This document shows, in pieces, positions 1-44,770 of a stretch of 64,000 nucleotides of DNA (positions are counted from its first letter, which is position 1; every line of letters starts with the position of its first letter). A program made the translations under genes and the position numbers. The notes beneath the pieces were generated by a model. That model had not been told where the DNA came from and searched no databases. It saw nothing but the letters and a program-made list of their open reading frames with translations. The stretch comes from Nibricoccus aquaticus (GTDB lineage: Bacteria; Verrucomicrobiota; Verrucomicrobiia; Opitutales; Opitutaceae), in the NCBI RefSeq assembly GCF_002310495.1, contig NZ_CP023344.1, forward strand, positions 4,543,501 to 4,607,500, written 5' to 3'.

Positions 1-1209
1 CGCACCGTTCTCTACGGCGCGCAGCATGGCATCACCGACAAAACCCAGCTCAACGCCTCAGTCTTTTCCCCCACGTTCATCTACGAGCAAATCAAAGAGG
101 CCGGTGACGCGTCCTGCCAGAAGGGCACGAATCCCATCAACGCGCTGGAGCTCATGAAGACCAGCGGCATCGCCCGCATCGCCACCGTTCCTTATCAATG
201 CGGCGCGCCCATCACGAGCAACGCCCTCCTCGAAGCCGTCGATTACACGATCAACGACTACCAGATCCTCTTCATGCCCGACGTCACGGACTACGACACG
301 CGCGTGAACACCGTCCGCAAATCCCTCGCCGAGGGTTATCCCGTCGTCCACTGCTTCACCGTCGTCAAAAGCTTCTACAAGGCCCCGCGCATCTGGCGCT
401 CTCTGCCGACCGACGGCGGCGCCGAAGGCCAGCACGGTCGACACGCGATGCTCATCGTCGGCTACGACGACGACCTCGACGGCGGCTGTTTCCGCGTACT
501 CAACAGTTGGGGACCGACCTGGGCCGACGGCGGCTACGTCTGGATTCCGTACACCGAGTTCGTGAAATACTCGCTCGGTGCGATTCAAGTTTACGGCCCT
601 CGCGGCTCCTCCGGCCACCAGCCCGCTCCCGGAGTTACTCCCGGCAAAAGCGCCATCAAGACAGCCGACTACCAGCTCAGCGGCCGCCTCAATTTCCGCC
701 TGCGCGACGGCACCGCGATGAACGCGCACCGCATCGTCAGCAACGACTCTACGCTGAGCGCCTACAAAATGGACCAGTCGTACTCCTCCGGCACGCGCTT
801 CCGTTTCTTCGTCACGACCAACACCGAAGCTTACATCTACGCCTTCGCGACCGACACCACCGGCAAGGTGAACAAGATCCTCCCCTTCGAAGACGGCATG
901 TCCCCGCTGGTCGGCCCCAACAGCACGATCGCGTTTCCCTCCGAGAAAAAAGTCGTCCGCATGGATGAGCAAAAAGGCACCGACTACCTGCTCGTTCTCT
1001 ACACCGATCGCCCGCTCAACGTGAAACAGGTCCACGAAAAACTTAACGCCGCTTCCGGCCCGTTGCTCTCCCGTCTGCGCAGCGCCTTGGGCACGCGCAT
1101 CGTCGATCCCGCCGTCGTGAAATACTCCGCCAACGACATCGCCTTCGACGTCGAACGCGTCGCCCCCGGCGGCATCGTCCCGCTCATGGTCGAGATCACC
1201 CACGACTAA
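1..1209 (+). CDS. Papain-family (C1A) cysteine protease with DUF4384-like C-terminus, 5' truncated
   Basis: The reading frame is open from base 1, so the N-terminus and catalytic Cys lie outside the window; 402 codons are visible. The papain half ends with catalytic His148 (GRHAMLIVGYDD) and Asn168 (VLNSWGPTW), numbered from base 1, followed by the usual GGYVWIPY strand. Residues about 225-345 resemble DUF4384: a beta-rich stretch with TRFRFFVTTNTEAYIYAF, an ILPF segment and a YLLVLYTDRPL strand near the end. DUF4384 is often fused to exported proteases and kinases. The next gene starts 18 nt downstream, so this is probably the first visible gene of a protease/beta-helix operon. Export is inferred from the neighbours, since the N-terminus is not visible. 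The family call is firm; the substrate is unknown. Confidence 0.85.
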   Translation, partial: RTVLYGAQHGITDKTQLNASVFSPTFIYEQIKEAGDASCQKGTNPINALELMKTSGIARIATVPYQCGAPITSNALLEAVDYTINDYQILFMPDVTDYDTRVNTVRKSLAEGYPVVHCFTVVKSFYKAPRIWRSLPTDGGAEGQHGRHAMLIVGYDDDLDGGCFRVLNSWGPTWADGGYVWIPYTEFVKYSLGAIQVYGPRGSSGHQPAPGVTPGKSAIKTADYQLSGRLNFRLRDGTAMNAHRIVSNDSTLSAYKMDQSYSSGTRFRFFVTTNTEAYIYAFATDTTGKVNKILPFEDGMSPLVGPNSTIAFPSEKKVVRMDEQKGTDYLLVLYTDRPLNVKQVHEKLNAASGPLLSRLRSALGTRIVDPAVVKYSANDIAFDVERVAPGGIVPLMVEITHD

Positions 1210-1227
1210 CCCCGTTCCACTTTCCCC

Positions 1228-2721
1228 ATGCTCCGCTTTTCGTTCCCTGGGCGCCGCGTTCTTGCCGGCGCCTTTTGCGTTCTTCCTCTCCTCATCTCCG
1301 CCGCGACTCTCCGCGTCCCCGAAGACTACGCGCTCATTCAACGCGCCATCGCCGCCGCCGCGCCAGCCGACACCATCGTCATCGCCGCCGGCACGTATCG
1401 GGAAAATCTATTCATCAACAAACCGCTCACGTTGCGCGGCGCCGGTTCCGATAAAACCACGATCCTCGCACCCAATCGCAGCCTGGCGATTGCCCGCATT
1501 GAGTACTACGGCCCGGTGACGCTCACCGACCTCACGCTCGCCCACGAAAAACAATCCACCGCCAAAGAACCTGACGTCGCCGTTTACTCCCTCGATGTGG
1601 ACGACGCCGACATCACGCTTCGTAATCTCCACCTCGCTCGCTCCGCAGGCTACGGAATCCACTGCGTTGCCAACGCCGTCGTCATTGAAAACGTCACCGT
1701 CTCCGAAACGGCCTTCAACGCACTTTCGCTGGAAGACACCAAGCCCGGCGTGCGCGTCACCAATCTGGTGATGAACGCCGACACCGAGAATAATCCCCTG
1801 CGTCTCGAAAACGTCGTCGGCACTTTCAAAGACGTTAAATTTTCCCTGCCCGACCACGGTGAGATCCAAATCTGGGGCGCCGCTTCTGCGATCAAGTTCG
1901 AAAACTTGCCTCCGGCGCATTTTGCCAGAATCCGCTGGCTCGATGGCGCCGCCGCCGATGGCCCGAAACCCGCCACAGCCGACAGTCTCACTGAGCATCG
2001 TCTCGCCGAACGGACGGACATGCGCGCCATGCGAAAAGAAAATATCGCCGAGAAAAACGAGATGGACGTCAAACGCGCCGCCGCTGCCCGCGAGTTCGCG
2101 ACGACCTTGAAAACCGCCTCCACGCCCGAGGCCAACAAAGCCGCCGTCACCCAATACATCCGGACGCTCGTCGAGATCGACGGCGTCGATTTCAACTGGT
2201 CCAGCAACGCCCTTCCGATCCTTGGCGAACTCAGTGCCTACAGTGACCGCTTCGGCCCGCTCGCCTTGGAGGAACTCTTGCGCGAACTGCCCGCCAAAGA
2301 CGCCGAACCAGGCATGGCGGATAACTATCTTCTCTATCTCCCCGCAGCGCTGAAAAACCCGATCGCCGAAGCTCGCGCGAAAAAATCCCTCGCCAGCACA
2401 TTCGATCTTCCGGCGGTCCTCGCAAAATGGAAATCCGCCGACGGCAAAGATCCACGCGCCGCCGCGACCGCCTTCGCTGACGTAGTGAAGACCGTTTCCG
2501 AAAAAGCAGACGCCTCTTCCGCGGACGAAAAACAGATTCTGAAGTCTGCCGTCATCGCCGAAATCTCTCCCTTCATCGAGTCACGCGGTTACGCCGCCCT
2601 CAGCGCGCTGATCGACGCACTCGCCGCCAACCCTCTTGCGTTGGTCTCCGCCGACGAAGTGCGCGCCGCCATGTCGCCGACGCAGAAACGCGCCCTAGCC
2701 AAACACCTTCTCAGCGAATGA
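1228..2721 (+). CDS. Exported right-handed beta-helix protein with helical C-terminal half (copy 1)
   Basis: The 497-aa protein has a clear signal peptide (hydrophobic VLAGAFCVLPLLISA, cleavage after about residue 25). The mature part begins with the pectinesterase/pectin-lyase-like pattern LRVPEDYALIQRAI..DTIVIAAGTYREN and continues as beta-helix coils (LTLRGAG, ITLRNLHL, VVIENVTV) to about residue 240. The second half is charged and helical, with no recognised domain. No pectinesterase catalytic motifs are evident, so a binding or scaffold role is more likely than catalysis. Its last four bases overlap the next start codon (ATGA at 2718-2721), so it is probably translationally coupled to the caspase gene. 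The gene at 9551 is a paralogue with the same layout. Confidence 0.75.
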   Translation: MLRFSFPGRRVLAGAFCVLPLLISAATLRVPEDYALIQRAIAAAAPADTIVIAAGTYRENLFINKPLTLRGAGSDKTTILAPNRSLAIARIEYYGPVTLTDLTLAHEKQSTAKEPDVAVYSLDVDDADITLRNLHLARSAGYGIHCVANAVVIENVTVSETAFNALSLEDTKPGVRVTNLVMNADTENNPLRLENVVGTFKDVKFSLPDHGEIQIWGAASAIKFENLPPAHFARIRWLDGAAADGPKPATADSLTEHRLAERTDMRAMRKENIAEKNEMDVKRAAAAREFATTLKTASTPEANKAAVTQYIRTLVEIDGVDFNWSSNALPILGELSAYSDRFGPLALEELLRELPAKDAEPGMADNYLLYLPAALKNPIAEARAKKSLASTFDLPAVLAKWKSADGKDPRAAATAFADVVKTVSEKADASSADEKQILKSAVIAEISPFIESRGYAALSALIDALAANPLALVSADEVRAAMSPTQKRALAKHLLSE

Positions 2722-5700
2722 TCACGAGTCGCGCAGTTTTCCTCTTCGCCATCATCGCCTCCTGCGCATGGGCGCAACCCGTCCCAGCACCCGAACCAGA
2801 ATCCATCCGCGTGCCCGACGGAGTGCCGACGCTCTCCACCTCGCACACGCTCTCAATCGACCGCGTGCTGCTCTCGCCCGACGGCAAACGCGTCTTCACT
2901 CACGACGGCGGCAACGTTTACGCCTGGGATTTCGAGACCAGAAAAAAACTCCGCCCACTCTCCGCAGCCGCTTCCTCCAGAAAGGGAACATCACTCGCCG
3001 AGTTCCACCTCATCACCGACCAGAAGCGCCTGGTCTTCGGCAGCGACTCGGTGAACTATGAAACACTGGAGCCTTTCAAAACCTGGCCCGAACTCACACC
3101 TCAAGCATCCGCGTGGGATGCGAAACGCAAAAAACGTTTCTGGGCCCGCGGCTCCCGTGAAGAAATCATGTTCGGCGAACTGGCCGAAAGTAAACAAGCC
3201 GCCCGAGCATCACGCGCGCACGTGATCATCAAGTCGCCGCACATCGCCCAAAATCACGCCGTGTGTCACCGCTTGCTCGTGCTCGACGACGGACGGCTCC
3301 TCGCGTCCACCAACTACGGCGTCTTCTACATCGATCCCGATACCTGGACGATCACTTCTCCCGGCAGCGAACCCGAACGCCGCGTCCGTCCGCTCATGTA
3401 CATGGACGAAACCCGCGACGTGAAAACCGCCACCTTCACCCGCGAGACTCAATCCGGCGGATACGTCGAAGGCCCGCAAGGTACACTGATTCTCGCAGAG
3501 TCATCCCTCGCCACAAAGCGCACGAAGCTCTCCCTCGTTTCCGCGAAAGACATGTCGCCTCTCCGCACCGCCGAAATCGACGGCTTCCTGACCTACCTCG
3601 GCACCGACACCTTCGATCCCGCTAACAAGCAGCTCTGGTTCAAAAGCGGCCAGAACCTGATCGCCCTCGATTTCGATACGCTCGCGCCCCGCGATTCCAT
3701 CTCTGCGAAAAAGCTCCTGTTGAAAGAGCCACACGCCGCCATCGGCGACGCAGTGCCCGTGCCCGGCAGCTCACACTGGCTCATCGCCGTCGGCAAAACC
3801 CTCTGGCTTTACGACGTCGCGACCGAAACCCCGCTCGGCCAATTCGGCGACGCCGTCCCCGCCTTCACTCGTCTGGCAACTCACCCCACGAATTTCGAGT
3901 TCCTCGCCACCGACGATCAAGGTCTGGCCAAACGCGTGCGCTTCCTCCCCAACGGCATCGAAGTCACCTCGGCCAAAGGCAATTTCTCGTCCTTCGCCTA
4001 CGATCCCACCGATGGCGAAACCATCGCCCACGGAAATTCCGCCAGTCCCATCATTCATTTCAGCGACCGCCCTAAATGGCCCGTGGAAGATTTTCGCCTC
4101 CCGCAGAAAGCCGCGTCCGACACCCGCGGAGCTTCGGCGAATTTGATCTACTCGCAGGATGGCACACGCATTGTCGCCCACAGCGCTTACGGCGTGACCG
4201 CCTACAACCTCACAGACGGAAAACGGATTCTCAACCAGCCCGGCTCGCAAAAATGGCTGCCCACCGGACGCCAGATCACCGCCATTTCTCCCGACAACAA
4301 ATGGATCGTCGTTTACGACGGTGACAAAAAGCTCATCGGCTACGACAGCGAGCGTGGCGAAAAAGCCTGGGAGCAGAGCGTCGCCCAATTTCCCGTCCTG
4401 ATCTATTTCGCCGGTCCCAAAACCGTCTGCGCCCTGGTCGACGGCCAGCTCGAATACCGCTCCGCCGAGACCGGCGTGATCAAACTCTCCACTCCTTTGA
4501 ACGGCTCCTCGTTCGCCCACGCCACCGCTGTTTCCCCTGACCGAAAACTCATCGCCTGCGCGGGCTCCAGCCTCTTCGTTTACGATCCCGCGACAGAGTC
4601 TGTCGTCTTCGAAACCAAAACCTCCGGCCACATCCGCGCCGTCGCGTTCTTCGCCAACGCGCGCTATCTCGTCACAGCTGGCGCCGACAATCTGCTCCGG
4701 CTCTGGGATATTCAGGAGAAACAGGAACTCTGCTCGATCGCCCTCTTCGACGATACCAACGACTGGGTCGTCACCACGAAGAACCTCCGCTTCGACGGCT
4801 CCGAAAAAGCCATCGACACGATGTACGTCGTGAAGGGCACCGACATCATCCCGCTCGAATCGCTCTTCGAAAAACTCTACACGCCCAAACTCCTCGCCTC
4901 GCTCTTGCGAGGCGAAAAACTCGAAGCGCCGGCCGTCGATTTGAAGAAGATCGCCGCGCCGCCGCTCGTCCGTCTCGAATCAGCCGACGGCGCGCGCAAT
5001 CTGATCGTCGAAGACGACACGAACGAAAACACGCGCACTCAGGACTCGCTCAAGCTCCGCGCGCTCGCCGACGCCCGCCAGTCCACCGTCGCCGAGATCC
5101 GTCTCTTCCAAAACGGCAAACTCCTTGCCACCACCATTGGTCGCGGCGCCCAGTTCACCGAGAACTTTGAGGTCAAAATCGTCCCTGGCGAAAACATCTT
5201 CCGCGCCGTAGCCATTAACGCCGACCGCACCGAGTCCCGCCCAGCCGAAATCACCTTCACCTATCGTCCGAAAGTCTCCGCCCCCATCGCCGGTGCCTCC
5301 TCTCCGCAACCGACCGGACTTCAGCTTCACCTGCTCATCGTCGGCGTGAACACGTACAAGAATCCCAAGTACAACCTCAACTACGCCGTCGCCGACGCCA
5401 CCGCCGTCAAAGAAAAGATCGAGGCGCAGACCAAGACCATCTTCACCGGCGTAAACGTGAAATTCATCCTCAACGATCAGGCGCAAAAATCTTCCATCAC
5501 CGACGCCTTCCGCGAACTTTCCGCCAAGGCCGGCCCGCGCGACGTCTTCGTCTTCTACTACGCCGGCCACGGCGTGATGACCTCCGACGCCAAACCCGAG
5601 TTCTTCCTCGTACCGCACGACGTGCTTCAGCTCTACGGCGCTGACGACGCACTCCGTCAAAAAGGTCTCTCCAGCGCCGAACTTCTCGACCTCTCGAAGC

Positions 5701-6086
5701 TGATGCCCGCGCAGAAACAGCTCTTCATCCTCGACGCCTGCCAATCGGCCGGCGCATTGACGACCGTCGCCATGCGTGGCGCTGCCGAGGAAAAAGCCAT
5801 CGCTCAACTCGCCCGCTCCTCAGGCACACACTGGCTCACTGCCTCCGGCTCCGAGCAATTCGCCACCGAGTTCGCCACGCTCGGCCACGGCGCCTTCACA
5901 TACGCTTTGCTCGAAGGCTTGAGTGGTCGTGCCGACACCGGCGACGGCCGCATCACCGTCAACGAACTCAAAGCCTTCCTCGAATCCGAGGTTCCCGAGA
6001 TCACTCAAAAGCATAAAGGCACACCGCAGTTCCCCTCCAGCTACGGCTTCGGCCAGGACTTCCCCGTCGTCATTAAGTCCCACTAA
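2718..6086 (+). CDS. Exported WD40-propeller / caspase-like (C14) protease, copy 1
   Basis: The 1122-aa protein begins with a signal peptide (AVFLFAIIASCAWA). Residues about 40-690 form repeated WD40-like blades, for example VLLSPDGKRVFTHD and YLVTAGADNLLRLWD. An Ig-like linker (IRLFQNGKLLAT, PGENIFRAVAIN) covers about 745-860. A caspase/metacaspase domain runs from about 868 to the end, with catalytic His951 in YYAGHGVM and Cys1008 in LDACQSAGAL, both intact. A GDGRITVNEL segment near the C-terminus resembles an EF-hand loop. The start overlaps the beta-helix gene by 4 nt. Bacterial C14 proteins often cleave after basic residues and may need Ca2+; neither is shown here. The role is inferred to be proteolysis triggered by ligand binding to the propeller, in the periplasm or at the surface. 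Confidence 0.85.
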   Translation: MITSRAVFLFAIIASCAWAQPVPAPEPESIRVPDGVPTLSTSHTLSIDRVLLSPDGKRVFTHDGGNVYAWDFETRKKLRPLSAAASSRKGTSLAEFHLITDQKRLVFGSDSVNYETLEPFKTWPELTPQASAWDAKRKKRFWARGSREEIMFGELAESKQAARASRAHVIIKSPHIAQNHAVCHRLLVLDDGRLLASTNYGVFYIDPDTWTITSPGSEPERRVRPLMYMDETRDVKTATFTRETQSGGYVEGPQGTLILAESSLATKRTKLSLVSAKDMSPLRTAEIDGFLTYLGTDTFDPANKQLWFKSGQNLIALDFDTLAPRDSISAKKLLLKEPHAAIGDAVPVPGSSHWLIAVGKTLWLYDVATETPLGQFGDAVPAFTRLATHPTNFEFLATDDQGLAKRVRFLPNGIEVTSAKGNFSSFAYDPTDGETIAHGNSASPIIHFSDRPKWPVEDFRLPQKAASDTRGASANLIYSQDGTRIVAHSAYGVTAYNLTDGKRILNQPGSQKWLPTGRQITAISPDNKWIVVYDGDKKLIGYDSERGEKAWEQSVAQFPVLIYFAGPKTVCALVDGQLEYRSAETGVIKLSTPLNGSSFAHATAVSPDRKLIACAGSSLFVYDPATESVVFETKTSGHIRAVAFFANARYLVTAGADNLLRLWDIQEKQELCSIALFDDTNDWVVTTKNLRFDGSEKAIDTMYVVKGTDIIPLESLFEKLYTPKLLASLLRGEKLEAPAVDLKKIAAPPLVRLESADGARNLIVEDDTNENTRTQDSLKLRALADARQSTVAEIRLFQNGKLLATTIGRGAQFTENFEVKIVPGENIFRAVAINADRTESRPAEITFTYRPKVSAPIAGASSPQPTGLQLHLLIVGVNTYKNPKYNLNYAVADATAVKEKIEAQTKTIFTGVNVKFILNDQAQKSSITDAFRELSAKAGPRDVFVFYYAGHGVMTSDAKPEFFLVPHDVLQLYGADDALRQKGLSSAELLDLSKLMPAQKQLFILDACQSAGALTTVAMRGAAEEKAIAQLARSSGTHWLTASGSEQFATEFATLGHGAFTYALLEGLSGRADTGDGRITVNELKAFLESEVPEITQKHKGTPQFPSSYGFGQDFPVVIKSH

Positions 6087-6145
6087 CACCGCACTGAGTC
6101 ATCGCGCGTTCATCCCTTTCACCCCCGCTCACTTCTCGTTCTCCG

Positions 6146-9100
6146 ATGCTTCGCTCACTCCGTCTCTGCGCGTTATTCTTCACCCTGCTGCCCTGCCTGC
6201 TCTCCGCCGACGAAGCCGACATCCCACGCCTCGTCTTACCCACGCCCCACGGCGAATCCGTCTATCACATGACGACGATGCCCGATGGCCGCTTCGCCAT
6301 CTCCGGCACGCAATCGGGCCAGCTGAAACTCTGGGATGTTTCCACCGGCACCGAATTAAAAACCATCACCCTCGGCCTCGCCTCCGAAAAACGCCTCCTC
6401 GCGATTCTCGTCCGCAACGCGGCGCAGATATACGCCGTCACCTCCGATCGCGTCGTCATCTTCGAAATCCCCACGCTCAAAATCCTCAACACGATCGAGA
6501 GCCGGCGTGAAATTCTCCACGCAGAAGTCTCGCCCGACGGCGAATCGCTCTGGCTGGGAAGTTCCAGTGATCAAAAAAACATTCTTCAAGTCCTCCGCCG
6601 CGGACGCTTTCCCATTCGCGAAGTGATGGAGCGCGCGCGTCCCTCAGACTCCACCCGCGGCTGGGGTTTCCCCGAGGTGAGCCCCGACGGTCGCTACGCG
6701 ATCATTACCGACTCGCACAAACACCCCACGGTTATTGTCCGCACCGAAGACGCACAGGTTGTCCACACGCTGCCGAGAGGAACCGCGATTCCCAATGTCG
6801 CCGACAGCGGTCGCGCCGGGGCCGGTTGGACAGCCGACAGTCGCCTCGTCATCTCGCGCGGGATGGGACCCGACGGGAAACAAAACCTCATCGAGATCAT
6901 CAACCCCGACAGCCTTCAAGTGGAGTGGTCCACGGAACTTAAAACCGAATCTCCCTGGCAAGGCTTCGCCCTCCAGGATCACGGACGCCCCGGCGATCCG
7001 TTGATCTTCAAATCCATCGAACGCTTTTTCTTCCTCGATGGCACCACGATCGACGGCCCGTACGCGTCGTCGGGATTTACGGTAAGCCAGCTCGCCACGG
7101 TCGACTCTCGTTTCGTTGTTTGCTCAACAACGCAACTCGATCCCCAAACCAACGCGTCCACCACGCAGCTCCGCAAATTCGACCGCGCCCGAGGATCGTA
7201 TTCTTCACCGTGGTCTCCGCCGGTGCACCAGACCACTCTCTTTGCAGCCTCGTCGCGCGCAGACACAATGTTCGTCACCGGTCACGGCGGTGGCCGGCTT
7301 CTTCAACTCGATCGCGGCGGCCTCCGCATCACATACGTGCCCATCCGCAAAATCTACGACGCGCTTTTCGCACCCGACGGCCAGTCGGTGATCTTCAACG
7401 GCGGTGAACACGATGACCGCACGAGCGGCATCATTTCCCTCAACCGTCCCGATCAGCCGCGTCTATCGAAGATGCCCTTCGAAAGCGTGAGCCGCGGAGC
7501 CCGCGGCAACATCGTGCTGTCTCCTTCCGGCAAGCTCGCAGTCGACATGCGCAACGGCCAGTCGCCGGTTATCGTTTACGATCCTTACTCGGGTAATCAG
7601 CTCTGCACCTTCACCAACGGATACTATAGCTACGATCAAACCACCGGCTCCGCCGCCATCTCGCCCGACGACAAACGCATCGTCTATTATACCTCAGAGA
7701 AAGACACCTCCGGCCGCTCTGTACACTGCTACGACATCACGACCGGCGCCAAGATCTGGTCGCGCCACCAGCTCAACCACGACTTCGCGACTTTCCGCTT
7801 TTCCTCCGACGGCAAACAGATTTTCGCCGTCGGCTTCGGCTTCAATCAAAGGCTCTACGTGTTCAACGCCGACACCGGAGAAAGCATTCGCGAGCACGAG
7901 CTGCCTCAAACCAGTCAGGCCGCCCAGGCCACGTTCAATCCAACCGGCACCGAGGTCGCGCTTCCTTTCGACGACAGCATCATTTTCGCGAGCCTCGCTG
8001 ACGGCAAAGAACTCCGCCGCGCCACTTCGCCTGCGCAACGCGTCGAAAGATTGAGTTACCTTGGCGACGACCGGCTTGCGAGCGTCGGCGCAGATAAAGC
8101 GATCCGCATTTGGAACGTCACCCGCGCCGAACTCCTCGGCGCGATCTCATTCTCCGGCGACGGAAAAGAGTGGGCCTTCATTCATCCATCCGGCCGGTTC
8201 GAAGCGACGCCAGGATTCCAGGAGCAGATGTACTTTATCCAAGGCACGACGAAAGTTCCGCTCTCCGCGTATTTCGAATCCTACCACACGCCGGGCCTCA
8301 TCGGCCAGATCATGGCAGGCGAAACCATCGCCGCGCCAACGATCCAACTCAAAGATCTCACTGAACCGCCCAAAGTCTTCCTCGCGCTCGCCGGTTCCAC
8401 GCGAAACCTGACCGTCGAAGACGCGCCCGAAGAAGTCACCAGCGAGCAAGCATCACTTCGCATCACGGCCCAAAGCGAGCAGAGCAAAATCTCCGAGATC
8501 CGCCTCTACCACAACGGCAAGCTCGTCGAGTCCCGCACACGCAATCTCACCGTCGAAGACGACGTACCTGATATCGCCACGGGCAAAGCCGGTCGCACCG
8601 AAACCATCGCTGTCACACTTCTCCCCGGAGAAAACACCTTCCGCGCCGTCGCTCTGAACGAACAACGCACCGAGTCCGCCCCGGCACTTCTTTCCATCGA
8701 CTATAAAGCCCCCACATCCGCCTCACCTGCCACCGCCGCGCTCACCGGCCGCGATGGCGGCGGCATGCAACTCCACCTGCTCGTCATCGGCGTGAACACG
8801 TACCGGAATCCCAAGTACAACCTCAACTATGCCGTTCCCGACGCCACCGCCGTCCGCGACCTCGTCCAAAAAAATGCCACCGGCATTTTCACCAAGGTCA
8901 ACGTCACCACCTTCTTCAACGACAAGGCCACCCGCTCCGCCATCCTCGAATCGTTCACCACCATCGCGCAGCAATCCGGCCCGCGCGACGTCTTCGTCTT
9001 CTACTTCGCCGGCCACGGCGTGATGTCTTCCGACGCCAAGCCCGAGTTCTTCCTCGCTCCTTACGAACTTACCCAACTCTACGGCGCCGACGAACAGCTC

Positions 9101-9535
9101 CGCGCCAAAGCCATTTCCAGCGCCGAACTTCTCGCCGCCTCCGCAAAAATCTCGGCGCAAAAACAACTCTTCCTCCTCGATGCCTGCCAGTCCGCTGGCG
9201 CTCTCCAAACCGTCGCCATGCGCGGCGCCTCCGAAGAAAAAGCCGTCGCCCAACTAGCCCGCGCCTCCGGCACGCACTGGATCACCGCTTCCGGCTCGGA
9301 ACAATTCGCCACTGAGTTTGAGAAACTTGGTCACGGCACGTTCACCTACGCGCTCCTCGAAGCGCTCGGCGGCAAAGCCGACAACGGCGACGGCCGGATC
9401 ACCGTCAACGAGCTCAAAGCCTACCTCGAAACGCAGGTCCCCGAACTCACCAAGCTCCACAAAGGCACGCCGCAATACCCCGCCAGCTACGGCTTCGGGC
9501 AGGATTTCCCCCTTTCAGTCATTTCAAAAAACTAA
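6146..9535 (+). CDS. Exported WD40-propeller / caspase-like (C14) protease, copy 2
   Basis: The 1129-aa paralogue of the upstream gene has the same order: signal peptide (LCALFFTLLPCLLSA), WD40-like propeller, Ig-like linker, and caspase domain from about residue 873. The catalytic pair is His957 (YFAGHGVM) and Cys1014 (LDACQSAGAL), with the same 57-residue spacing as the other copies. The linker holds two RNLTVED segments, at about 750 and 795, where the other copies have one, suggesting a small internal duplication. The caspase domain is the most divergent of the three (for example a QKNATGIFTKVNV insertion region and LAPYELTQLYG), and the propeller is clearly different. It lies 59 nt after copy 1 and 15 nt before the second beta-helix gene. 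The domain call is firm; the biological role is unknown. Confidence 0.85.
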   Translation: MLRSLRLCALFFTLLPCLLSADEADIPRLVLPTPHGESVYHMTTMPDGRFAISGTQSGQLKLWDVSTGTELKTITLGLASEKRLLAILVRNAAQIYAVTSDRVVIFEIPTLKILNTIESRREILHAEVSPDGESLWLGSSSDQKNILQVLRRGRFPIREVMERARPSDSTRGWGFPEVSPDGRYAIITDSHKHPTVIVRTEDAQVVHTLPRGTAIPNVADSGRAGAGWTADSRLVISRGMGPDGKQNLIEIINPDSLQVEWSTELKTESPWQGFALQDHGRPGDPLIFKSIERFFFLDGTTIDGPYASSGFTVSQLATVDSRFVVCSTTQLDPQTNASTTQLRKFDRARGSYSSPWSPPVHQTTLFAASSRADTMFVTGHGGGRLLQLDRGGLRITYVPIRKIYDALFAPDGQSVIFNGGEHDDRTSGIISLNRPDQPRLSKMPFESVSRGARGNIVLSPSGKLAVDMRNGQSPVIVYDPYSGNQLCTFTNGYYSYDQTTGSAAISPDDKRIVYYTSEKDTSGRSVHCYDITTGAKIWSRHQLNHDFATFRFSSDGKQIFAVGFGFNQRLYVFNADTGESIREHELPQTSQAAQATFNPTGTEVALPFDDSIIFASLADGKELRRATSPAQRVERLSYLGDDRLASVGADKAIRIWNVTRAELLGAISFSGDGKEWAFIHPSGRFEATPGFQEQMYFIQGTTKVPLSAYFESYHTPGLIGQIMAGETIAAPTIQLKDLTEPPKVFLALAGSTRNLTVEDAPEEVTSEQASLRITAQSEQSKISEIRLYHNGKLVESRTRNLTVEDDVPDIATGKAGRTETIAVTLLPGENTFRAVALNEQRTESAPALLSIDYKAPTSASPATAALTGRDGGGMQLHLLVIGVNTYRNPKYNLNYAVPDATAVRDLVQKNATGIFTKVNVTTFFNDKATRSAILESFTTIAQQSGPRDVFVFYFAGHGVMSSDAKPEFFLAPYELTQLYGADEQLRAKAISSAELLAASAKISAQKQLFLLDACQSAGALQTVAMRGASEEKAVAQLARASGTHWITASGSEQFATEFEKLGHGTFTYALLEALGGKADNGDGRITVNELKAYLETQVPELTKLHKGTPQYPASYGFGQDFPLSVISKN

Positions 9536-9550
9536 CCGCTCACTTGCTCC

Positions 9551-11122
9551 ATGTCTCCGCGCTTATTTCTTCTCACGACCGTTTTCCTCGCCACCGACAT
9601 CGCAGCGTTCACCGCCACGCTTCGCGTCCCGCAGGACTATCCGCTCATCCAACGTGCCGCGCTCGCCGCCGCTCCCGGCGACACGCTCATCATCGCCGAG
9701 GGCACGTATGTTGAAAACGTCGTCGTCACAAAACCGCTCATCATCCAAGGCGCCGGCCCCGGTAAAACCATCTTCATCGGCAAAGACCGCGCAAACGCCG
9801 TTCTCGCGTTGAATGGCAAAGGCGGCGCGATCTCCGCCGCCAACCTAACCGTCCGCCACGAGCCCGCTGTTCAGCTGCCCGTCGATCCAAACACCACCGA
9901 GCCACCGATCGAAGACATGGCCGAGGCACTCTCGATTTTCTCCGGCGATCTCACACTCAAAAACATCGCCGTCGAAAGCAGCAGCGGCGTCGGCGTGAAC
10001 GTGGCAGACGGCAAAGCCATCGTCGAAAACGTCACCGTCAACTACGCTCAAAGCGGTGGACTCTACCTCTACAAAACACTTCCCGGCACCACGGTGACCG
10101 GCTTCGTCATTCGCGAAAATAAAGGCACCTACGACATCTCCGTCCAACAATCCGTCGCCGAATTCAAAAAGCTCCAGCTCACCCAAAAAGAAAGCGCCGT
10201 CATCCAAGTCAGCGGTACCGACTCGTCCGCCACCTTTCACGATCTCTCCGCTGATCTGAAAACAAAGATCGACTGGACCGATGGTGCCTCCGCCGACGGT
10301 CCCGCTAAAAAAACAGAAAGCACCGAAGCCCCCGCTTCCACTGAGGGAGAAGAAAACAATGTAGACCACGCCGAGGTCATGGACGCCTACTCGCAGCAGC
10401 GTCAGGCCATGCGCGACGAGCATCAACTCGCCACCGAACCCGTCCGCCGTCAGCTCGCCCGCGATCTCCAAGCCTCCATCAAAGACAAGAAAACCGCCGG
10501 AGACTACGCCGCCACGCTCGGTGTTTATTTCAAAGCGCTTCTGGAAACCTACCAGCCTGCCGAGACCGCCGACTTCGGCGTCGATCAGGCCATCACCGGC
10601 GAACTCCGCGCCTTCTATGAACGCTTCGGCGCGCAAGCGACAACCGACGCCATTCCGACCTGGCCCAAACACGCCGACTTCAACGAAGGCATGATCCAAG
10701 CCAGCTACGACTGGTCGATCACTCGCGCGATGAAAGCAGGCATCGAAAAAGCCCGCGGCGAAGCCTGGGTGAAAGCCAACAGCACAAAGCTCGACGAATA
10801 TTTTTCCGCATGGAAAAACGAGAAGAGCAAAGACCCCGCTGTTCTCGCCGCCGCCTTTCTCAAAGGCATCAATTTCACCGCCGAACTTCTCAACGCCGGG
10901 GAGTTTTCACCTGAAAATCTGATCGGCTCTCTGCGCGAGCGTACACTCAAGGAACTCAACGCCTTCATTGCTCAAGCCGGCTACCCTGCTGTCGCGCAGC
11001 TTCTCCGTCAGATCGCCGCCGACCAGGCCAACGGTCTCTTCACCGCGCCAGAACTCCAAGCGGCGCTTACGCCCGAGCAAAAGCGCGAGCTCTTCAAAGC
11101 CATGCGCGGCGGCTCCAAATAA
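9551..11122 (+). CDS. Exported right-handed beta-helix protein with helical C-terminal half (copy 2)
   Basis: The 523-aa paralogue of the 1228-2721 product has a signal peptide (LFLLTTVFLATDIAAF). It shares the TLRVPQDYPLIQRAA..DTLIIAEGTYVEN start, beta-helix coils to about residue 245, and a Glu/Lys/Ala-rich helical half containing a Q/R-rich stretch (SQQRQAMRDEHQL). The same position in copy 1 reads MRAMRKENIAEKNEM, so the C-terminal half is a shared domain and not random divergence. It is followed after 7 nt by the third caspase gene, repeating the beta-helix-then-caspase order. No catalytic residues were recognised. Confidence 0.72.
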   Translation: MSPRLFLLTTVFLATDIAAFTATLRVPQDYPLIQRAALAAAPGDTLIIAEGTYVENVVVTKPLIIQGAGPGKTIFIGKDRANAVLALNGKGGAISAANLTVRHEPAVQLPVDPNTTEPPIEDMAEALSIFSGDLTLKNIAVESSSGVGVNVADGKAIVENVTVNYAQSGGLYLYKTLPGTTVTGFVIRENKGTYDISVQQSVAEFKKLQLTQKESAVIQVSGTDSSATFHDLSADLKTKIDWTDGASADGPAKKTESTEAPASTEGEENNVDHAEVMDAYSQQRQAMRDEHQLATEPVRRQLARDLQASIKDKKTAGDYAATLGVYFKALLETYQPAETADFGVDQAITGELRAFYERFGAQATTDAIPTWPKHADFNEGMIQASYDWSITRAMKAGIEKARGEAWVKANSTKLDEYFSAWKNEKSKDPAVLAAAFLKGINFTAELLNAGEFSPENLIGSLRERTLKELNAFIAQAGYPAVAQLLRQIAADQANGLFTAPELQAALTPEQKRELFKAMRGGSK

Positions 11123-11129
11123 CACTGTC

Positions 11130-14100
11130 ATGAGCCCACGATCATTCGTCTCCGTCATCCTGCTCATCGCTTTTGCAGGCATCATTCCCACGTTTGGGCA
11201 GGACTCCAAAATGGTGACTGTGGTGGATCGAAACGCGCCACATCCGGCGGTTTCCAACGGGCATCGTGAAAACATCGTCGCCTCGTTCCTGTCGCCGGAT
11301 GGTTCGAAACTTTTCACCTCGGACTCCAAACAGCTGCGCGTCTGGGATGTCGCCAGTCGCCGGGAGCTCAGTCTCCTGCACGTCCGCACCGGCGGCTCCT
11401 CTGACTGGTTTGCCACCTTCGTGCCGGAAAAAAAGTGGCTGTTCACGATCGGCGAGCGCGGCTTCACGATCATCAACTACGAGACACTCGCGCACGTCAC
11501 GGGCGGTTCGATCTACGACGCCGTCGATGTGGTGTGGGACGCCAGGCACAACCGGTTCCTCTACGTGGACAACCGCGGTTCCGTCGGCGAGATCGTTGAA
11601 CGCGACGGCACGTGGACGGCCACACTCCAAGGCTCGCTTTCGTACCTGAACGGCTACTCCGCCAAGCCGGCCAGCCTTATCCTTCTCGCCGACGGTCGGC
11701 TGCTGATTGGCCTCGATAAAGGCCACGCCATTTTCGATCCCGTCGCGTGGAAGGAAGTTTCCCGCGTCGAGGGAGCCCGCCGCTATTTCGAGCGCGGGCC
11801 CGCCGGAACGCTCTTCGCCGTGTCCGCGCCCGACAATAAAACCAAGCCCGCCACGGTCGAAAAACTTTCCGAAACCGATATCTCAACACTCGCAACACTC
11901 ACGCTTCCATCCGGCAGCTACGTCTTCTCGCTAAGGCCCGATGCTTTTGATGCGGAAACGAACACCCTCGCCCTCACGCTCGGCAGCTCGATCGCTTTGG
12001 TTGATCTGGAGACTCTAAAAATCCGCGAGCAAATCCCCGTGGCTTCCCTGACCCCCGGAAACTCCTCGGCCTACCGGATCATTCACCACCCGGCATCGAA
12101 GGAGTGGTTTCTCATCGCTGGCCAAAACGTTCATCTCGTAGATCTCCAATCGAAACGCCATATCGCCACACTCGGCGACAACGTCTTCCAGCCCCGGCTG
12201 CTCGCCTCGAGCCCAAAGGGCTTCGAATTCGTGGTGAGCGACCGGCAGGAGAATCTCAAGCGCGTCCGCTTCACGTCTGCCGGCGTCCAGATCACCGACG
12301 CCAAATTGAGCGCGACCGCCTTACTCTACACGGCGGAGGGCGATCTCGCTTTTGGTAACAGCGCCAGCTCCGAAATCTCGTTTATCGAGCCGGCACGCTT
12401 TCCGAAACCTGAGTACAAGCTCTCAACTGGAAAAAAGCTGTGGTCCACCCCCGGCCACATCAGCGCCTCCAGCGACGGCAGTCTGATCGTCGTTCGCGCG
12501 ATCAATTCTCTGGCTGTTATTTCAACGCTCGATGGCCAAGTCGTCTTCGAAACGGAAGTGCCGAACCAATATATTGGAAACGAAAAAGGAACCGCCGCGA
12601 TCTCGCCCGATAATCGCGTGCTCGTCGTTTATTCTCCCGACGGAAACATCCTGGGCTTCGATCTGAAGACGAAGAAAGGGCTATGGACCAAGGCCGCCCC
12701 GTATGGCGTGCGCAACGGCTTCTTCTTCCTCTCCGCTGAGGTCTTCGCCTGCGTCGCTCGTCAGGCAATCGAGTACAGATCGACCGACACCGGCGACACC
12801 ATGCTCGAGGCTCCCATTTACTCTCACACGCTGGACCGCCCGCTTTCCTGCGCCATTTCCCCAGACCGCAAACGGCTCGCCATCTACGACGGCGCTTACG
12901 TGCAGGTGTTCGACGCGGAGCTCGGCGAAAAGCTCATGGAGCAATACTCCTTCGCCCAAGTCACCGATTTGGAATTCCTCGGTGACTCGCGCTACATCGT
13001 CACCGCTGGCGAAGACAACCTGCTGCGGATCGTGGATGTCGATCAACGCCGCGAGCTCTGCAGCCTCGCTCTCTTCGCCCACTCCAACGACTGGGTCGCC
13101 AGCGCACCGGATTTCCGCTTCGACGCCACCGACAAAGCCATCGACCGCATGTATGTCGTGAGCGGCGCCACCATCACCCCGCTGGAATCGCTCTTCGACA
13201 AACTCTACACGCCGAAGCTGCTCGCCGGATTGTTTACCAACGCACCCGTCGAAACACCGAAGGTTAATTTTTCCGAGCTCAGTCCGCCACCGAGCGTGCG
13301 TCTCGAATTCACCGAGCAAGCACGCAACCTCGTCGTCGAGGACGACCTTCCGCCTAACACCGTGGATCGCGACGCCATTCAAGTCCGCGCCACCGCCACC
13401 GCATCGCAAGCCGTCCTCCGTGAACTGCGCCTTTTTCAAAACGGCAAACTCGTCGCCACCACCGCCGCTCAAGGCACGAGCCAGAAGCATCCGTTCGAGG
13501 TGAAGCTCGTCCCCGGCGAAAACATCTTCCGCGCTATCGCCGTCAACGCCCAGGGCACCGAATCGCGTCCTGCCGAAGTGATCGTTACCTATCGTCCGAA
13601 AACTGCTGGAGTCGTCGCGGGTACCGCGCAACCACCCACCGGACTGCAGCTGCACCTGTTGATCGTCGGCGTGAACACCTACAAGAATCCCAAGTACAAC
13701 CTGAACTACGCCGTCGCCGACGCCACTGCCGTGAAGGACAAGATAGAGGCTCAGACCAAGACGATCTTCACCGGTGTGAACGTGAAATTCATCCTCAACG
13801 ATCAGGCGCAAAAATCCGCCATCACCGACGCCTTCAAAGAACTCACCGCCAAAGCCGGCCCGCGCGACGTCTTCGTCTTTTACTACGCCGGCCACGGTGT
13901 GATGACCTCCGACGCCAAACCCGAGTTCTATCTCGTTCCGCACGACGTCACTCAACTCTACGGTGCCGACGACGCGCTCCGGCAAAAAGGCATCTCCAGC
14001 GCCGAGCTCCTCGAACTCTCAAAGCTCATGCCCGCGCAGAAACAGCTCTTCATCCTCGACGCCTGCCAATCCGCCGGCGCACTCACAACCATCGCCATGC

Positions 14101-14414
14101 GCGGCGCCGCCGAAGAAAAAGCCATCGCTCAACTTGCCCGCTCGTCCGGCACTCACTGGCTCACCGCCTCCGGCTCCGAGCAATTCGCCACCGAGTTCGC
14201 ACAGCTCGGCCACGGCGCTTTCACCTACGCGCTCCTCGAAGGCCTCGCCGGTCGTGCCGACACAGCGGGCGACGGTCGTATCACGGTCAACGAACTCAAA
14301 GCCTTCCTCGAATCCGAAGTCCCCGAGATCACCCAGAAGCACAAAGGCACACCGCAATTCCCGTCGAGCTACGGCTTCGGCCAGGACTTCCCGATCACCG
14401 TCATCGCGAAGTAA
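11130..14414 (+). CDS. Exported WD40-propeller / caspase-like (C14) protease, copy 3
   Basis: The chosen ATG at 11130 gives a good signal peptide (SVILLIAFAGIIPTFG) and 1094 aa. The longer frame from 10968 would run back into the beta-helix gene and has no export signal at its start. The layout matches copies 1 and 2, with the caspase domain from about residue 838. Catalytic residues are His922 (YYAGHGVM) and Cys979 (LDACQSAGAL). By eye the last 260 residues match copy 1 almost residue for residue, while the propeller shares only scattered blade motifs. The EF-hand-like loop here reads DTAGDGRITVNE, one residue longer than in copy 1. It closes the block; a 56-nt gap separates it from a PL22-like gene. 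Confidence 0.85.
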   Translation: MSPRSFVSVILLIAFAGIIPTFGQDSKMVTVVDRNAPHPAVSNGHRENIVASFLSPDGSKLFTSDSKQLRVWDVASRRELSLLHVRTGGSSDWFATFVPEKKWLFTIGERGFTIINYETLAHVTGGSIYDAVDVVWDARHNRFLYVDNRGSVGEIVERDGTWTATLQGSLSYLNGYSAKPASLILLADGRLLIGLDKGHAIFDPVAWKEVSRVEGARRYFERGPAGTLFAVSAPDNKTKPATVEKLSETDISTLATLTLPSGSYVFSLRPDAFDAETNTLALTLGSSIALVDLETLKIREQIPVASLTPGNSSAYRIIHHPASKEWFLIAGQNVHLVDLQSKRHIATLGDNVFQPRLLASSPKGFEFVVSDRQENLKRVRFTSAGVQITDAKLSATALLYTAEGDLAFGNSASSEISFIEPARFPKPEYKLSTGKKLWSTPGHISASSDGSLIVVRAINSLAVISTLDGQVVFETEVPNQYIGNEKGTAAISPDNRVLVVYSPDGNILGFDLKTKKGLWTKAAPYGVRNGFFFLSAEVFACVARQAIEYRSTDTGDTMLEAPIYSHTLDRPLSCAISPDRKRLAIYDGAYVQVFDAELGEKLMEQYSFAQVTDLEFLGDSRYIVTAGEDNLLRIVDVDQRRELCSLALFAHSNDWVASAPDFRFDATDKAIDRMYVVSGATITPLESLFDKLYTPKLLAGLFTNAPVETPKVNFSELSPPPSVRLEFTEQARNLVVEDDLPPNTVDRDAIQVRATATASQAVLRELRLFQNGKLVATTAAQGTSQKHPFEVKLVPGENIFRAIAVNAQGTESRPAEVIVTYRPKTAGVVAGTAQPPTGLQLHLLIVGVNTYKNPKYNLNYAVADATAVKDKIEAQTKTIFTGVNVKFILNDQAQKSAITDAFKELTAKAGPRDVFVFYYAGHGVMTSDAKPEFYLVPHDVTQLYGADDALRQKGISSAELLELSKLMPAQKQLFILDACQSAGALTTIAMRGAAEEKAIAQLARSSGTHWLTASGSEQFATEFAQLGHGAFTYALLEGLAGRADTAGDGRITVNELKAFLESEVPEITQKHKGTPQFPSSYGFGQDFPITVIAK

Positions 14415-14470
14415 TTTAAATCCTCCATCTCGTCCTTTGCTTCGCGGAATTTTCCTTTCACCGTGAAGAG

Positions 14471-15706: not shown

Positions 15707-16486
15707 ATGCGCCTGCTCATCACCAACGACGACAGCCTCGACTGCGTTTTCCTCCACGTCCTCGTTCACGCGCTTCGCGACGCCGGTCACGAACTCTTCG
15801 TCGTGGCGCCAAAGACCGAGCAAAGCTGGATCGGCGCCGCCAAATCCCGCCATCGTCGCGTCAAGTCAGCCGTCTCCGATCGCGGTTTCAATTGCCCCAC
15901 GTGGATGGTCGACGGCACGCCGAGCGACTGCGTGAACATCGGCCTCGCCCACCTGCTCCCCGTGAAACCCGACGCCGTCGTCAGCGGCATTAACGTCGGC
16001 CTCAACGCCTCGCTCAGTTTCATCCCCGCGAGCGGCACGATCGCGGGCGCCTGGGAGGGCGTCGTTCACGGCCTGCCCGCCATCGCGTTCTCGCAACACC
16101 TCACCTTCGGCGCCTTCGACAAATTCAAACGCGACGGCGGCCAGCCCGATTCCGAGGTCTCCGTCACACTTCGCGCCACCGCTGTACACACCGCGAAACT
16201 CGTCCCCGCGCTCGTCGCATCCACGCCTCCGCGCAGCTTCATTCTCCACAACATCAACTTCCCCTTCCCCTGCACCGCCGCAACCGAAGTCCGCCGCACC
16301 GTGCCCGCGCAGGTCATCGTCCCCGGCCTCTTCAGTCCGCAAGCCGATGACGGCACACACAGCTTCGTCTTTGCGATGGGCGACGAAATCACCCCGCCCG
16401 ATAGCCCGCTCACCGACCGTGCCGCCCTCACCGCCGGCCACATCAGCCACACCGTCCTCGACTATAAAAAACTCTGCATGCTCTAG
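15707..16486 (+). CDS. surE: SurE-family 5'/3'-nucleotidase
   Basis: The 259-aa protein starts MRLLITNDDS, the SurE metal-binding motif, usually NDDG. It continues with the phosphate-contacting serine region (VVAPKTEQSWIG) and the VVSGINVGLNASLSF segment corresponding to the family's SGIN-G-N loop. SurE proteins are divalent-metal nucleoside-monophosphate phosphatases, often linked to stationary-phase survival. The Gly-to-Ser change in the first motif and the long 100-180 region suggest a subfamily that may prefer another phosphate ester. It is probably cotranscribed with the PL22 gene 12 nt upstream and ends 20 nt from the convergent membrane-protein gene. Confidence 0.82.
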   Translation: MRLLITNDDSLDCVFLHVLVHALRDAGHELFVVAPKTEQSWIGAAKSRHRRVKSAVSDRGFNCPTWMVDGTPSDCVNIGLAHLLPVKPDAVVSGINVGLNASLSFIPASGTIAGAWEGVVHGLPAIAFSQHLTFGAFDKFKRDGGQPDSEVSVTLRATAVHTAKLVPALVASTPPRSFILHNINFPFPCTAATEVRRTVPAQVIVPGLFSPQADDGTHSFVFAMGDEITPPDSPLTDRAALTAGHISHTVLDYKKLCML

Positions 16487-18329: not shown

Positions 18330-20123
18330 TTATTCAGTCGTCCGATTCGCCTCAGTCGCGATCGCCGGCTTGAGCGTTTCGCCCTTCACGCGAATCCCCG
18401 CCAGCCGCGTGATCACCAGCTCCGCATGCTCTGAAATGACATCCACCAGCGCATGACGCTGATGAATATCCACCGCGCCGACGATATTAGCGGGTAACCG
18501 CGTCACCCCGGCGATCTTGCCGACTATGTCTCCCGGGGTGATCAACTCCTTGCGGCCCACATTAACGAAAATCGTCGTGTAACCCGCCTCTTTGCCCGTG
18601 CGCCCCGGACGCTCGTACTTCTGCTTCGAAGCACGTGGCCGATCATCATCATGTGTACTCGCTTCTTTCAAGGGCTCGGCCCGGCGCGGTGGCGCTTCTT
18701 CGCGATACGCCGCCTTCTTAAATGAACCCGCATCAGGTTCGTGCGAGTGCGTCGGACGGGCGGGAGCAGCCGCCGCAGGTAATGCTTTAACCGGTGCCGC
18801 TTTCGCAGCAGGCGCCGCGTCCGGTTTATCGCCCCCACCCTGCTGCATCATGTGCAACAATGCCGAGCAAATGTCCGTGCTCGCATAGCCCTGCTCCAGC
18901 AACCGGTCGATGATGCGATCCTGTTTCTTGAACTTCGCCTCTTGCAGCGTCGTGCGCAGCTTCTCGAAAAACACATTCTCTCGCGCCTCCTCGACTTGAT
19001 CGAGCGACGGCACGTTCTCGCGGCGAATCTTGATCTTCGCGAAGCGGACCATGCCTTGAAGTTTGTAGAGCTCGCGTCCCGAAACGAACGTGAACGCCCG
19101 GCCCTCTTTGCCCGCGCGTCCCGTGCGACCCACCCGATGCGTATAATCCTCGGCGTCGTTCGGCAGATCGAAATTAAACACCACTTCAAGGTCGTCCACA
19201 TCGAGGCCGCGAGCCGCCACATCTGTCGCGATCAGGAACTCAAACCCGCGCCGGCGGAATTTCTCCATCACCCGGTTGCGCTGCGTCTGTGTGATGTCGC
19301 CGTGCAAACGATCCACCGCATAACCGCGCGCGTGCAGGTGCTCGTCGAGCTCATCGACCATGATCTTCGTGCTGCAAAAAATGATGCCGAAGCGAAAGTC
19401 GTAGAGATCGATCAGGCGCGTGAGCACTTCCAGTTTCGAGCGGCGATCCACCTCGAAATAAACCTGGTCCACCTTCGGCGCGTTCTGCGCAGAGGACTCT
19501 ACCTTGATCCAGGCCGGATTGCGTGTGAACCGCTTGATAAGCGATTGAATCGCCGGCGGCATCGTCGCCGAGAAAAACAGCAACTGCCGCTCCTCGGGCA
19601 CTGCCGAAAGGATCTTCTCGATGTCGTCGCGAAAGCCCATGTCCAGCATCCGGTCCGCCTCGTCGAGAATCACCAGCTTCAGCGCATCCAGCTTCAAAGT
19701 ACCGCGCTCCATGTGATCCATCACGCGGCCCGGCGTGCCAATGACGACCTGCACACCCGACTCCAGCGCGCGAAACTGCCGGTCATAGGATTGCCCGCCG
19801 TAGATCGGCGTCGCCTGGAGCCCGCGTTTGAACAGCGACAACTTGCCAACCTCCTCCGCAACCTGCACCGCGAGCTCGCGCGTGGGACATAGGATCAGCA
19901 CCTGCACTTTGCGCACCTGCGTATCGACCTTCTCGATCGCCGGGATCGCGAACGCCGCCGTCTTGCCTGAGCCCGTGGAGGATTGGCCGATCACATCGCG
20001 GCCTTCCAGAATCGTCGGGATCACCGCTGTCTGAATCGGCGAGGCCTCTTCAAAACCCATCTTATCGACGGCCTTGAGGATCTCGGGCGAAAGGCCCAGC
20101 TCGGCAAATTTAAGTTTTTCCAT
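18330..20123 (-). CDS. deaD: DEAD-box RNA helicase with DbpA-type RNA-binding tail
   Basis: The 597-aa protein has the full helicase core: Q-motif (GFEEASPIQTAVIPTILEGRD), motif I SSTGSGKT, PTRELA, TPGR, DEAD in VILDEADRMLDMGF, SAT, and the C-terminal HRVGRTGRAGKEG. A low-complexity Ala/Pro/charged linker (about 430-510) leads to a DbpA/CsdA-like RNA-binding domain (YTTIFVNVGRKELITPGDIV..IVGAVDIHQRHALVDV). Such proteins unwind RNA during ribosome assembly and cold adaptation. The gene is divergent from rhlE-like 20259-21533 with 135 bp between starts. The family call is secure; deaD is chosen over dbpA because of the length and linker. Confidence 0.9.
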   Translation of the reverse strand: MEKLKFAELGLSPEILKAVDKMGFEEASPIQTAVIPTILEGRDVIGQSSTGSGKTAAFAIPAIEKVDTQVRKVQVLILCPTRELAVQVAEEVGKLSLFKRGLQATPIYGGQSYDRQFRALESGVQVVIGTPGRVMDHMERGTLKLDALKLVILDEADRMLDMGFRDDIEKILSAVPEERQLLFFSATMPPAIQSLIKRFTRNPAWIKVESSAQNAPKVDQVYFEVDRRSKLEVLTRLIDLYDFRFGIIFCSTKIMVDELDEHLHARGYAVDRLHGDITQTQRNRVMEKFRRRGFEFLIATDVAARGLDVDDLEVVFNFDLPNDAEDYTHRVGRTGRAGKEGRAFTFVSGRELYKLQGMVRFAKIKIRRENVPSLDQVEEARENVFFEKLRTTLQEAKFKKQDRIIDRLLEQGYASTDICSALLHMMQQGGGDKPDAAPAAKAAPVKALPAAAAPARPTHSHEPDAGSFKKAAYREEAPPRRAEPLKEASTHDDDRPRASKQKYERPGRTGKEAGYTTIFVNVGRKELITPGDIVGKIAGVTRLPANIVGAVDIHQRHALVDVISEHAELVITRLAGIRVKGETLKPAIATEANRTTE

Positions 20124-20258
20124 CCCGCACCGTGTCTCAGAGATTCCGAAAAGCAGAGGACAAAATCCAACCGTACCTGTTCACGCTTGCCTCACCGCCT
20201 CCGGCTCGCCGGGAAATTTGCCCTCGCGTTCACCTTCGCGCGTAACGCTAATACGCGA

Positions 20259-44573: not shown

Positions 44574-44591
44574 AATACTCCTTCACATTCT

Positions 44592-44606
44592 CCCTGAATT
44601 TCAGGG
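44592..44606. repeat. Perfect palindrome CCCTGAA-T-TTCAGGG
   Basis: A 7-1-7 perfect inverted repeat sits 19 bp upstream of the DUF4838 start codon, next to the Shine-Dalgarno. It could act as an operator or an RNA leader hairpin controlling this gene. Confidence 0.5.
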
Positions 44607-44725
44607 TCCCATGGGGTACATGGGTATGATCAATCGATTCGGACTGTACAGGCACCTCCTGCCTCAGCGAATAAAGCGCTGAATACAGGGAGGCGCTGCG
44701 GCCGAACCGCCTGTTGGACTAACAA

Positions 44726-44751
44726 AAAGTGCCGTACTACGACGGCACTTT
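44726..44751 (-). terminator. Intrinsic terminator after the pectate lyase gene
   Basis: A 10-bp perfect stem AAAGTGCCGT/ACGGCACTTT with a 6-nt loop reads on the minus strand as GGCACTTTTTGTT. It starts 20 bp after the stop at 44771 and separates this gene from the DUF4838 gene. Confidence 0.85.
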
Positions 44752-44770
44752 GAAATAATCACCGGAAAGT

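Follow-up and report, generated by a model that had tools for sequence, protein, structure and literature searches.

The stretch of DNA analysed here (the window) is 64,000 bp long and corresponds to positions 4543501-4607500 of the single contig (C1) of the 4.73 Mb Nibricoccus aquaticus genome (G000). A block of six plus-strand genes extends from 270 bp before the window to position 14414, in the order papain-DUF4384, beta-helix BH1, WD40-C14 caspase A, WD40-C14 caspase B, beta-helix BH2 and WD40-C14 caspase C, with intergenic distances of +18, -4, +59, +15 and +7 bp (59 bp at most). The gene for the papain-type (C1A) protease occupies 1-1209 and is open at the window edge, and is whole in the genome (L005:13731-15209, with an ATG at L005:13731), coding for a 492-residue protein with a signal peptide. 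It is followed by BH1 (1228-2721; 497 aa), the partner of caspase A by position, and then by caspase A (2718-6086; 1122 aa), caspase B (6146-9535; 1129 aa), BH2 (9551-11122; 523 aa), which is directly 5' of caspase C, and caspase C itself (11130-14414, with an ATG at 11130; 1094 aa). The catalytic dyads are His951 and Cys1008 in caspase A (5568-5741), His957 (9014) and Cys1014 (9185) in caspase B, and His922 (13893) and Cys979 (14064) in caspase C. A simple signal-peptide rule is satisfied by all six proteins of the block, whereas five neighbouring housekeeping controls fail it; a possible lipobox is present in two of the caspases. A sequence-only reading of the window had described six consecutive plus-strand genes with small gaps or overlaps, signal peptides on the complete products and three intact caspase dyads, and all of this is borne out. 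A fourth C14 gene in the same genome is located away from the block (C1:926079) and codes for a 649-residue protein with no visible signal peptide.

A promoter and terminator scan of the block gave nothing exceeding chance. There is no terminator-like plus-strand site in 14415-14470, and an oligogalacturonate-lyase-like gene (PF14583; 14471-15694), which starts 56 bp past caspase C and codes for a product without a signal peptide, may therefore share a transcript with the block. A SurE-like gene (15707-16486) lies 12 bp beyond it. Elsewhere in the window there are two close, divergent DEAD-box-like RNA helicase genes (18330-20123, minus strand, and 19983-21533, plus strand), and neighbouring genes for a large DUF4838/He_PIG protein (40482-47620, minus strand) and an Ig-domain pectate lyase (54138-56171, plus strand), close to which there is a sodium:solute symporter; these are probably polysaccharide-use genes.

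The papain and the caspases are tightly linked across genomes. Papain matches with E<1e-200 and WD40-C14 matches with E<1e-140 occur in an identical set of five of 388 Verrucomicrobiota genomes, and beyond those five the next-best matches are 1e-38 and 1e-21, respectively. The chance of an identical set is about 1 in 7e10 with kinship ignored, two of the five genomes sharing a genus. Among 120 same-family relatives such caspase arrays are found in three genomes (G007, G019 and G088) besides that of the window, and a papain gene adjoins each. When 84,980 species genomes were scanned for the papain, nine loci with a close match were found, belonging to Planctomycetota, Bacteroidota and Verrucomicrobiota, and all of those that reach far enough have one to four WD40-C14 genes nearby; one locus (L071) is cut off and incomplete, and in another (L075) four other genes intervene between the papain and WD40-C14 genes. 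Close WD40-C14 matches are present in four of 150 Saprospiraceae genomes, three of which have a close papain and the fourth a papain fragment at a contig edge, and the only one of 199 Planctomycetota genomes with a close match has both proteins. When eight module genomes were searched whole, every close WD40-C14 gene was inside the cluster. In the Saprospiraceae, the more remote members of both families (papain-DUF4384 proteins and WD40-C14 arrays) occur separately, so that the coupling holds for this subfamily only. Chance clustering is ruled out by the co-occurrence and adjacency, and the recurrence of the papain-caspase core in three phyla indicates a real protease module, which bears out the exported multi-protease part of the earlier inference; we consider it very likely that this is a single functional module.

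The core of the module consists of one papain and one to four tandem-propeller caspases; the beta-helix is optional and most loci lack it. Most loci have the papain followed by one or more caspases, including a two-gene version in Paraflavitalea sp. CAU 1676 (L070), although the papain follows two caspases in G019, and in Planctomycetota the order is papain, caspase, beta-helix, caspase. A conserved six-gene order is thus rejected; of the ordered set that was to be looked for in relatives, the adjacency of papain and WD40-C14 holds and the six-gene order does not. Two Saprospiraceae loci (G585:C36:6949-22994 and G479:C104:63469-76251) each have around five WD40-C14 genes in tandem, which are more distant in sequence and lack a close papain, and in G019 the papain and two caspases lie beside a WD40 protein without a recognised caspase domain (L059:2001-4607, minus strand) and a TPR-CHAT protein, a caspase-like protease, with an apparent signal peptide (L059:4624-7347, minus strand).

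All three window caspases match the C14 Pfam family at about 1e-15 (56-58 bits against a cut-off of 21.4), placing them in family C14, and also give WD40/propeller Pfam matches. Caspase A has a signal peptide, two propellers (residues ~40-690), an Ig-like domain (~750-850) and the C14 domain (869-1119), and an AlphaFold model of it (14-sequence alignment, mean pLDDT 74) has two beta-propellers, one Ig-like domain and a C14 domain, with the propellers matching solved WD40 proteins, including Apaf-1, at Z ~24. The His-Cys dyad is kept in all 28 module caspases, and the same 28 are invariant for an Arg-Gly-Ala twelve residues past the Cys and for AQLAR and GTHW. In caspase A this Arg-Gly-Ala (R1020; 5775-5783, plus strand) adjoins a low-confidence loop of the model (1010-1019). 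A second motif, R[G/N]LxVE[D/E], has two sites, which are separated by about 48 residues and lie between the propellers and the protease, in the Ig-like region. Of the 28 caspases 21 have it at one site or at both, and the other seven lack the VEDD motif; in caspase A it is represented by RNLIVEDD (4992-5018, plus strand), within another low-confidence loop (759-770). Orthocaspases cleave after basic residues, according to PMC6426788, which makes R1020 a candidate self-processing site and R[G/N]LxVE[D/E] a candidate second processing site. The Arg-Gly conservation may have a structural cause instead. We also considered calcium control through an EF-hand-like loop (ADxGDGxITxxEL) and rejected it, as its acidic residues are lost in several classes.

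Export is a general property of the module. Nearly all of the module proteases have an export signal, and the few relatives that failed the signal-peptide rule did so on technical points; the catalytic residues are intact in every one of the proteases. The previous reading had regarded C14 proteins with WD40 repeats as usually cytoplasmic, which is partly right, and a 2012 survey (Asplund-Samuelsson et al., PMC3501461) lists 46 bacterial metacaspases with one N-terminal helix that is perhaps a signal peptide.

Caspases A and C are 94% identical in the caspase domain and 30% identical in the propellers. In other Verrucomicrobiota the caspase paralogs fall into orthologous propeller classes that are kept across genera, which shows that the copies are old and distinct and do not represent recent redundancy, and the propellers of caspase B cluster with the class whose gene is last in the operon of those genomes. 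The caspase tree joins caspase B to A and C (87/89), whereas the propeller tree joins it to another class (87/95); an AU test gave p = 0.255 for placing B with its propeller class and p = 0.045 for placing A and C with the Planctomycetota class. The synonymous distance of the linker neighbouring the caspase domain is as low as that of the caspase domain, and synonymous distances in the propellers rest on poor alignment. The contrast in identity and the conflict between the trees suggest that the window caspase domains may have undergone gene conversion, although fast propeller divergence is an equally good explanation.

BH1 and BH2 share 30% identity over their full length. In the AlphaFold model of BH2 (4 sequences, pLDDT 78) a right-handed beta-helix leads into a domain made up wholly of helices, and the same architecture is assigned to BH1 from its likeness to BH2. 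The beta-helix matches solved right-handed beta-helices at Z ~20 over ~210 residues, among them alginate and pectin enzymes and phage tailspikes, and so has the fold of carbohydrate-active beta-helix enzymes of the pectin esterase, PL6 and AlgE types; searches with the complete model yielded no clear fold match for the helical domain. No Pfam or NCBIfam catalytic family matches BH1 or BH2 over cut-off, and the Pfam beta-helix matches are themselves sub-cut-off, and a role for the beta-helix as an enzyme is rejected on this basis.

Full-length beta-helix relatives are found only in module genomes, with two in the window, one free-standing gene in each of the two Planctomycetota MAGs (L068:7495-8946 and L069:14670-16121) and one in G164, where an almost complete beta-helix protein forms the N-terminal part of a caspase fusion (L143:4223-8068, 1281 aa). 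Among 256 genomes of the class they occur in G000 and G164 alone. The block thereby survives a test set beforehand, the co-occurrence of beta-helix and caspase genes in relatives, which is seen in the two Planctomycetota genomes and in the G164 fusion. All four of the free-standing beta-helix genes are directly upstream of a caspase, and the caspases that they precede (A, C and those of L068 and L069) group together as one propeller-tree clade (95/96), from which caspase B, with no beta-helix gene before it, is excluded. Nothing argues more strongly for a specific partnership than this match between the beta-helix genes and a single propeller clade. The beta-helix proteins had been proposed as substrates, anchors or regulators, and the one-clade pairing together with the G164 fusion favours an anchor or regulator over a substrate. 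We note that other exported fusions of a long right-handed beta-helix to a C14 domain are present in G007 (L061:8352-10394) and G056 (L062:3587-5932). These belong to another C14 subfamily (with an SGHG/DSC dyad), lie near an alaS-like gene in both genomes, and are an independent link between beta-helices and caspases.

The window papain has Pfam matches to C1 (5e-10) and DUF4384 (8e-11), and the active site residues Gln75, Cys81, His238 and Asn258 are present, as in C1A members. An N-terminal inhibitory propeptide is typical of C1A papains although not universal. No propeptide profile matched the window papain, in which the Cys is at residue 81 and the signal peptide takes up about 22 residues, and without a long propeptide it may need no activation. 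Module papains form a single clade (100/100) apart from other C1A-DUF4384 proteins, within which the window papain groups with Planctomycetota (90/85) and not with other Verrucomicrobiota. This grouping suggests that the module was transferred between phyla. Among mobile elements, two plasmids carry relatives of the papain, all of them distant, and phages yielded no caspase relative of full length. In several Verrucomicrobiota there are two small genes without a Pfam match 5' of the papain, coding for products of ~150 aa and ~185 aa, the latter with hydrophobic segments (e.g. G164, L143:2182-2643; G156, L144:5253-6278; L073:8379-9402; also G470 and G007), and these may belong to the module in those genomes.

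The gene set of a papain and tandem-propeller caspases is apparently undescribed. No account of papain-DUF4384 with tandem-propeller caspases was found among open-licence PMC papers, which agrees with the earlier remark that no named system is known to have this composition. However, exported caspase homologs and multi-caspase operons are already catalogued: PMC3501461 reports 20 multi-metacaspase operons, with up to three metacaspases per operon, and WD40 as the commonest partner domain of prokaryotic caspase homologs. The metacaspases and orthocaspases described there share with the module the C14 p20-type domain, the His-Cys dyad, WD40 repeats and, in some, presumed signal peptides, whereas in the module there are two propellers before the caspase, export is the rule, NACHT and other NTPase domains are absent, and there is a tie to papain-DUF4384 and at times to a beta-helix. 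The EACC1-caspase two-gene conflict system (Kaur et al. 2020, PMC7159879) is likewise a compact caspase-based gene set, and the module caspases match NCBIfam NF047832 at 1e-25 to 1e-27, although at 89-94 bits against a cut-off of 140. By gene identity there is no counterpart of the EACC1 5' transmembrane gene, the genes 5' of module caspases being papain and beta-helix; nor is there a variable effector, and the module caspase domain is C-terminal and exported. Apaf-1 and the NACHT-WD40 caspases also use tandem WD40 propellers with caspase chemistry, but the module proteins have no CARD or NB-ARC/NACHT, their propellers are fused straight to the caspase and they are exported from the cytoplasm; the propeller likeness to Apaf-1 implies no functional kinship. 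TPR-CHAT proteases, as in Craspase, similarly join a clan CD caspase-like protease to a recognition domain, but the module has no CRISPR component and is exported. As a catalogued anti-phage defence the block is rejected, since the sole PADLOC match is to a generic caspase model, of which 130 of 453 positions are covered, and papain and beta-helix have none.

We tentatively favour an interpretation, plausible though short of probable, in which this is an exported sensor-protease module, with the propellers and beta-helix recognising, the caspase as the effector and the papain as a constant second protease. Each caspase would be a protease under regulation, located in the periplasm or at the cell surface, with two propellers that bind a target or partner, and in the A/C type the beta-helix subunit, of a fold that is common among carbohydrate-binding proteins, would add a second recognition surface. 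On engagement the caspase would cut after Arg, first at its own Arg-Gly/Asn loops (R1020 and R[G/N]LxVEDD) and then in other exported proteins. The papain, as the constant single-copy partner, would most likely process the caspases or be activated by them, and the propeller classes would supply several recognition specificities per cell, all feeding one catalytic chemistry.

Among the alternatives, the one that fares best, although we regard it as unlikely, is that the papain and caspases are a maturation or envelope-processing machine that trims or ligates exported proteins in normal growth, with the propellers and beta-helix as docking scaffolds and neither a cascade nor killing. Every component is exported with its catalytic residues intact, propellers often serve as docking scaffolds, the module loci show no gene of toxin-like, pore-forming or NTPase type, and paralog classes are kept across genera as housekeeping specificities would be; but the patchy distribution (5 of 388) and apparent inter-phylum transfer fit an accessory function better, and the propellers of caspases A and C are strongly diverged. 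Rather less likely is an extracytoplasmic two-protease cascade in which an external ligand would switch on the caspases through their propeller/beta-helix receptors, and these would act through a dedicated papain or be activated by it, giving a complement-like surveillance system that moved between phyla. We are a little more doubtful of a conflict or cell-death system, in which exported caspases, on sensing rivals, predators or phage at the surface, would kill the cell itself or its neighbours, a fratricide-type role having been suggested for exported metacaspases (PMC3501461). The sporadic distribution across phyla, the diversified recognition domains on a conserved effector and the kinship between the caspase domain and the EACC1-type caspases found in conflict systems all speak for this, although the loci have no visible immunity, effector or lysis gene and no NTPase switch, the PADLOC match is generic, and export sets the module apart from known cytoplasmic caspase defences. 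Finally, it is improbable that these are nutrient-acquiring proteases that digest external protein while beta-helix and propellers bind particulate or polysaccharide-bound matter, for although two cysteine-protease types occur together and the window contains the oligogalacturonate-lyase-like neighbour and polysaccharide-use genes, these neighbours do not accompany the module in other genomes, caspase-type enzymes are specific and not digestive, and bulk digestion needs no fixed papain with several old caspase classes.

Most discussion of bacterial caspase homologs treats them as proteases of the cytoplasm that serve in cell death or defence. Here the caspases are exported, have double propellers and travel with one papain-type protease, as a compact set that has apparently moved between phyla. 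The two-gene version in Paraflavitalea sp. CAU 1676 offers a simple case for the exported caspase-papain pair and for the targets of its propellers. If the cascade is real, regulated caspase-type signalling would also work outside the bacterial cytoplasm.
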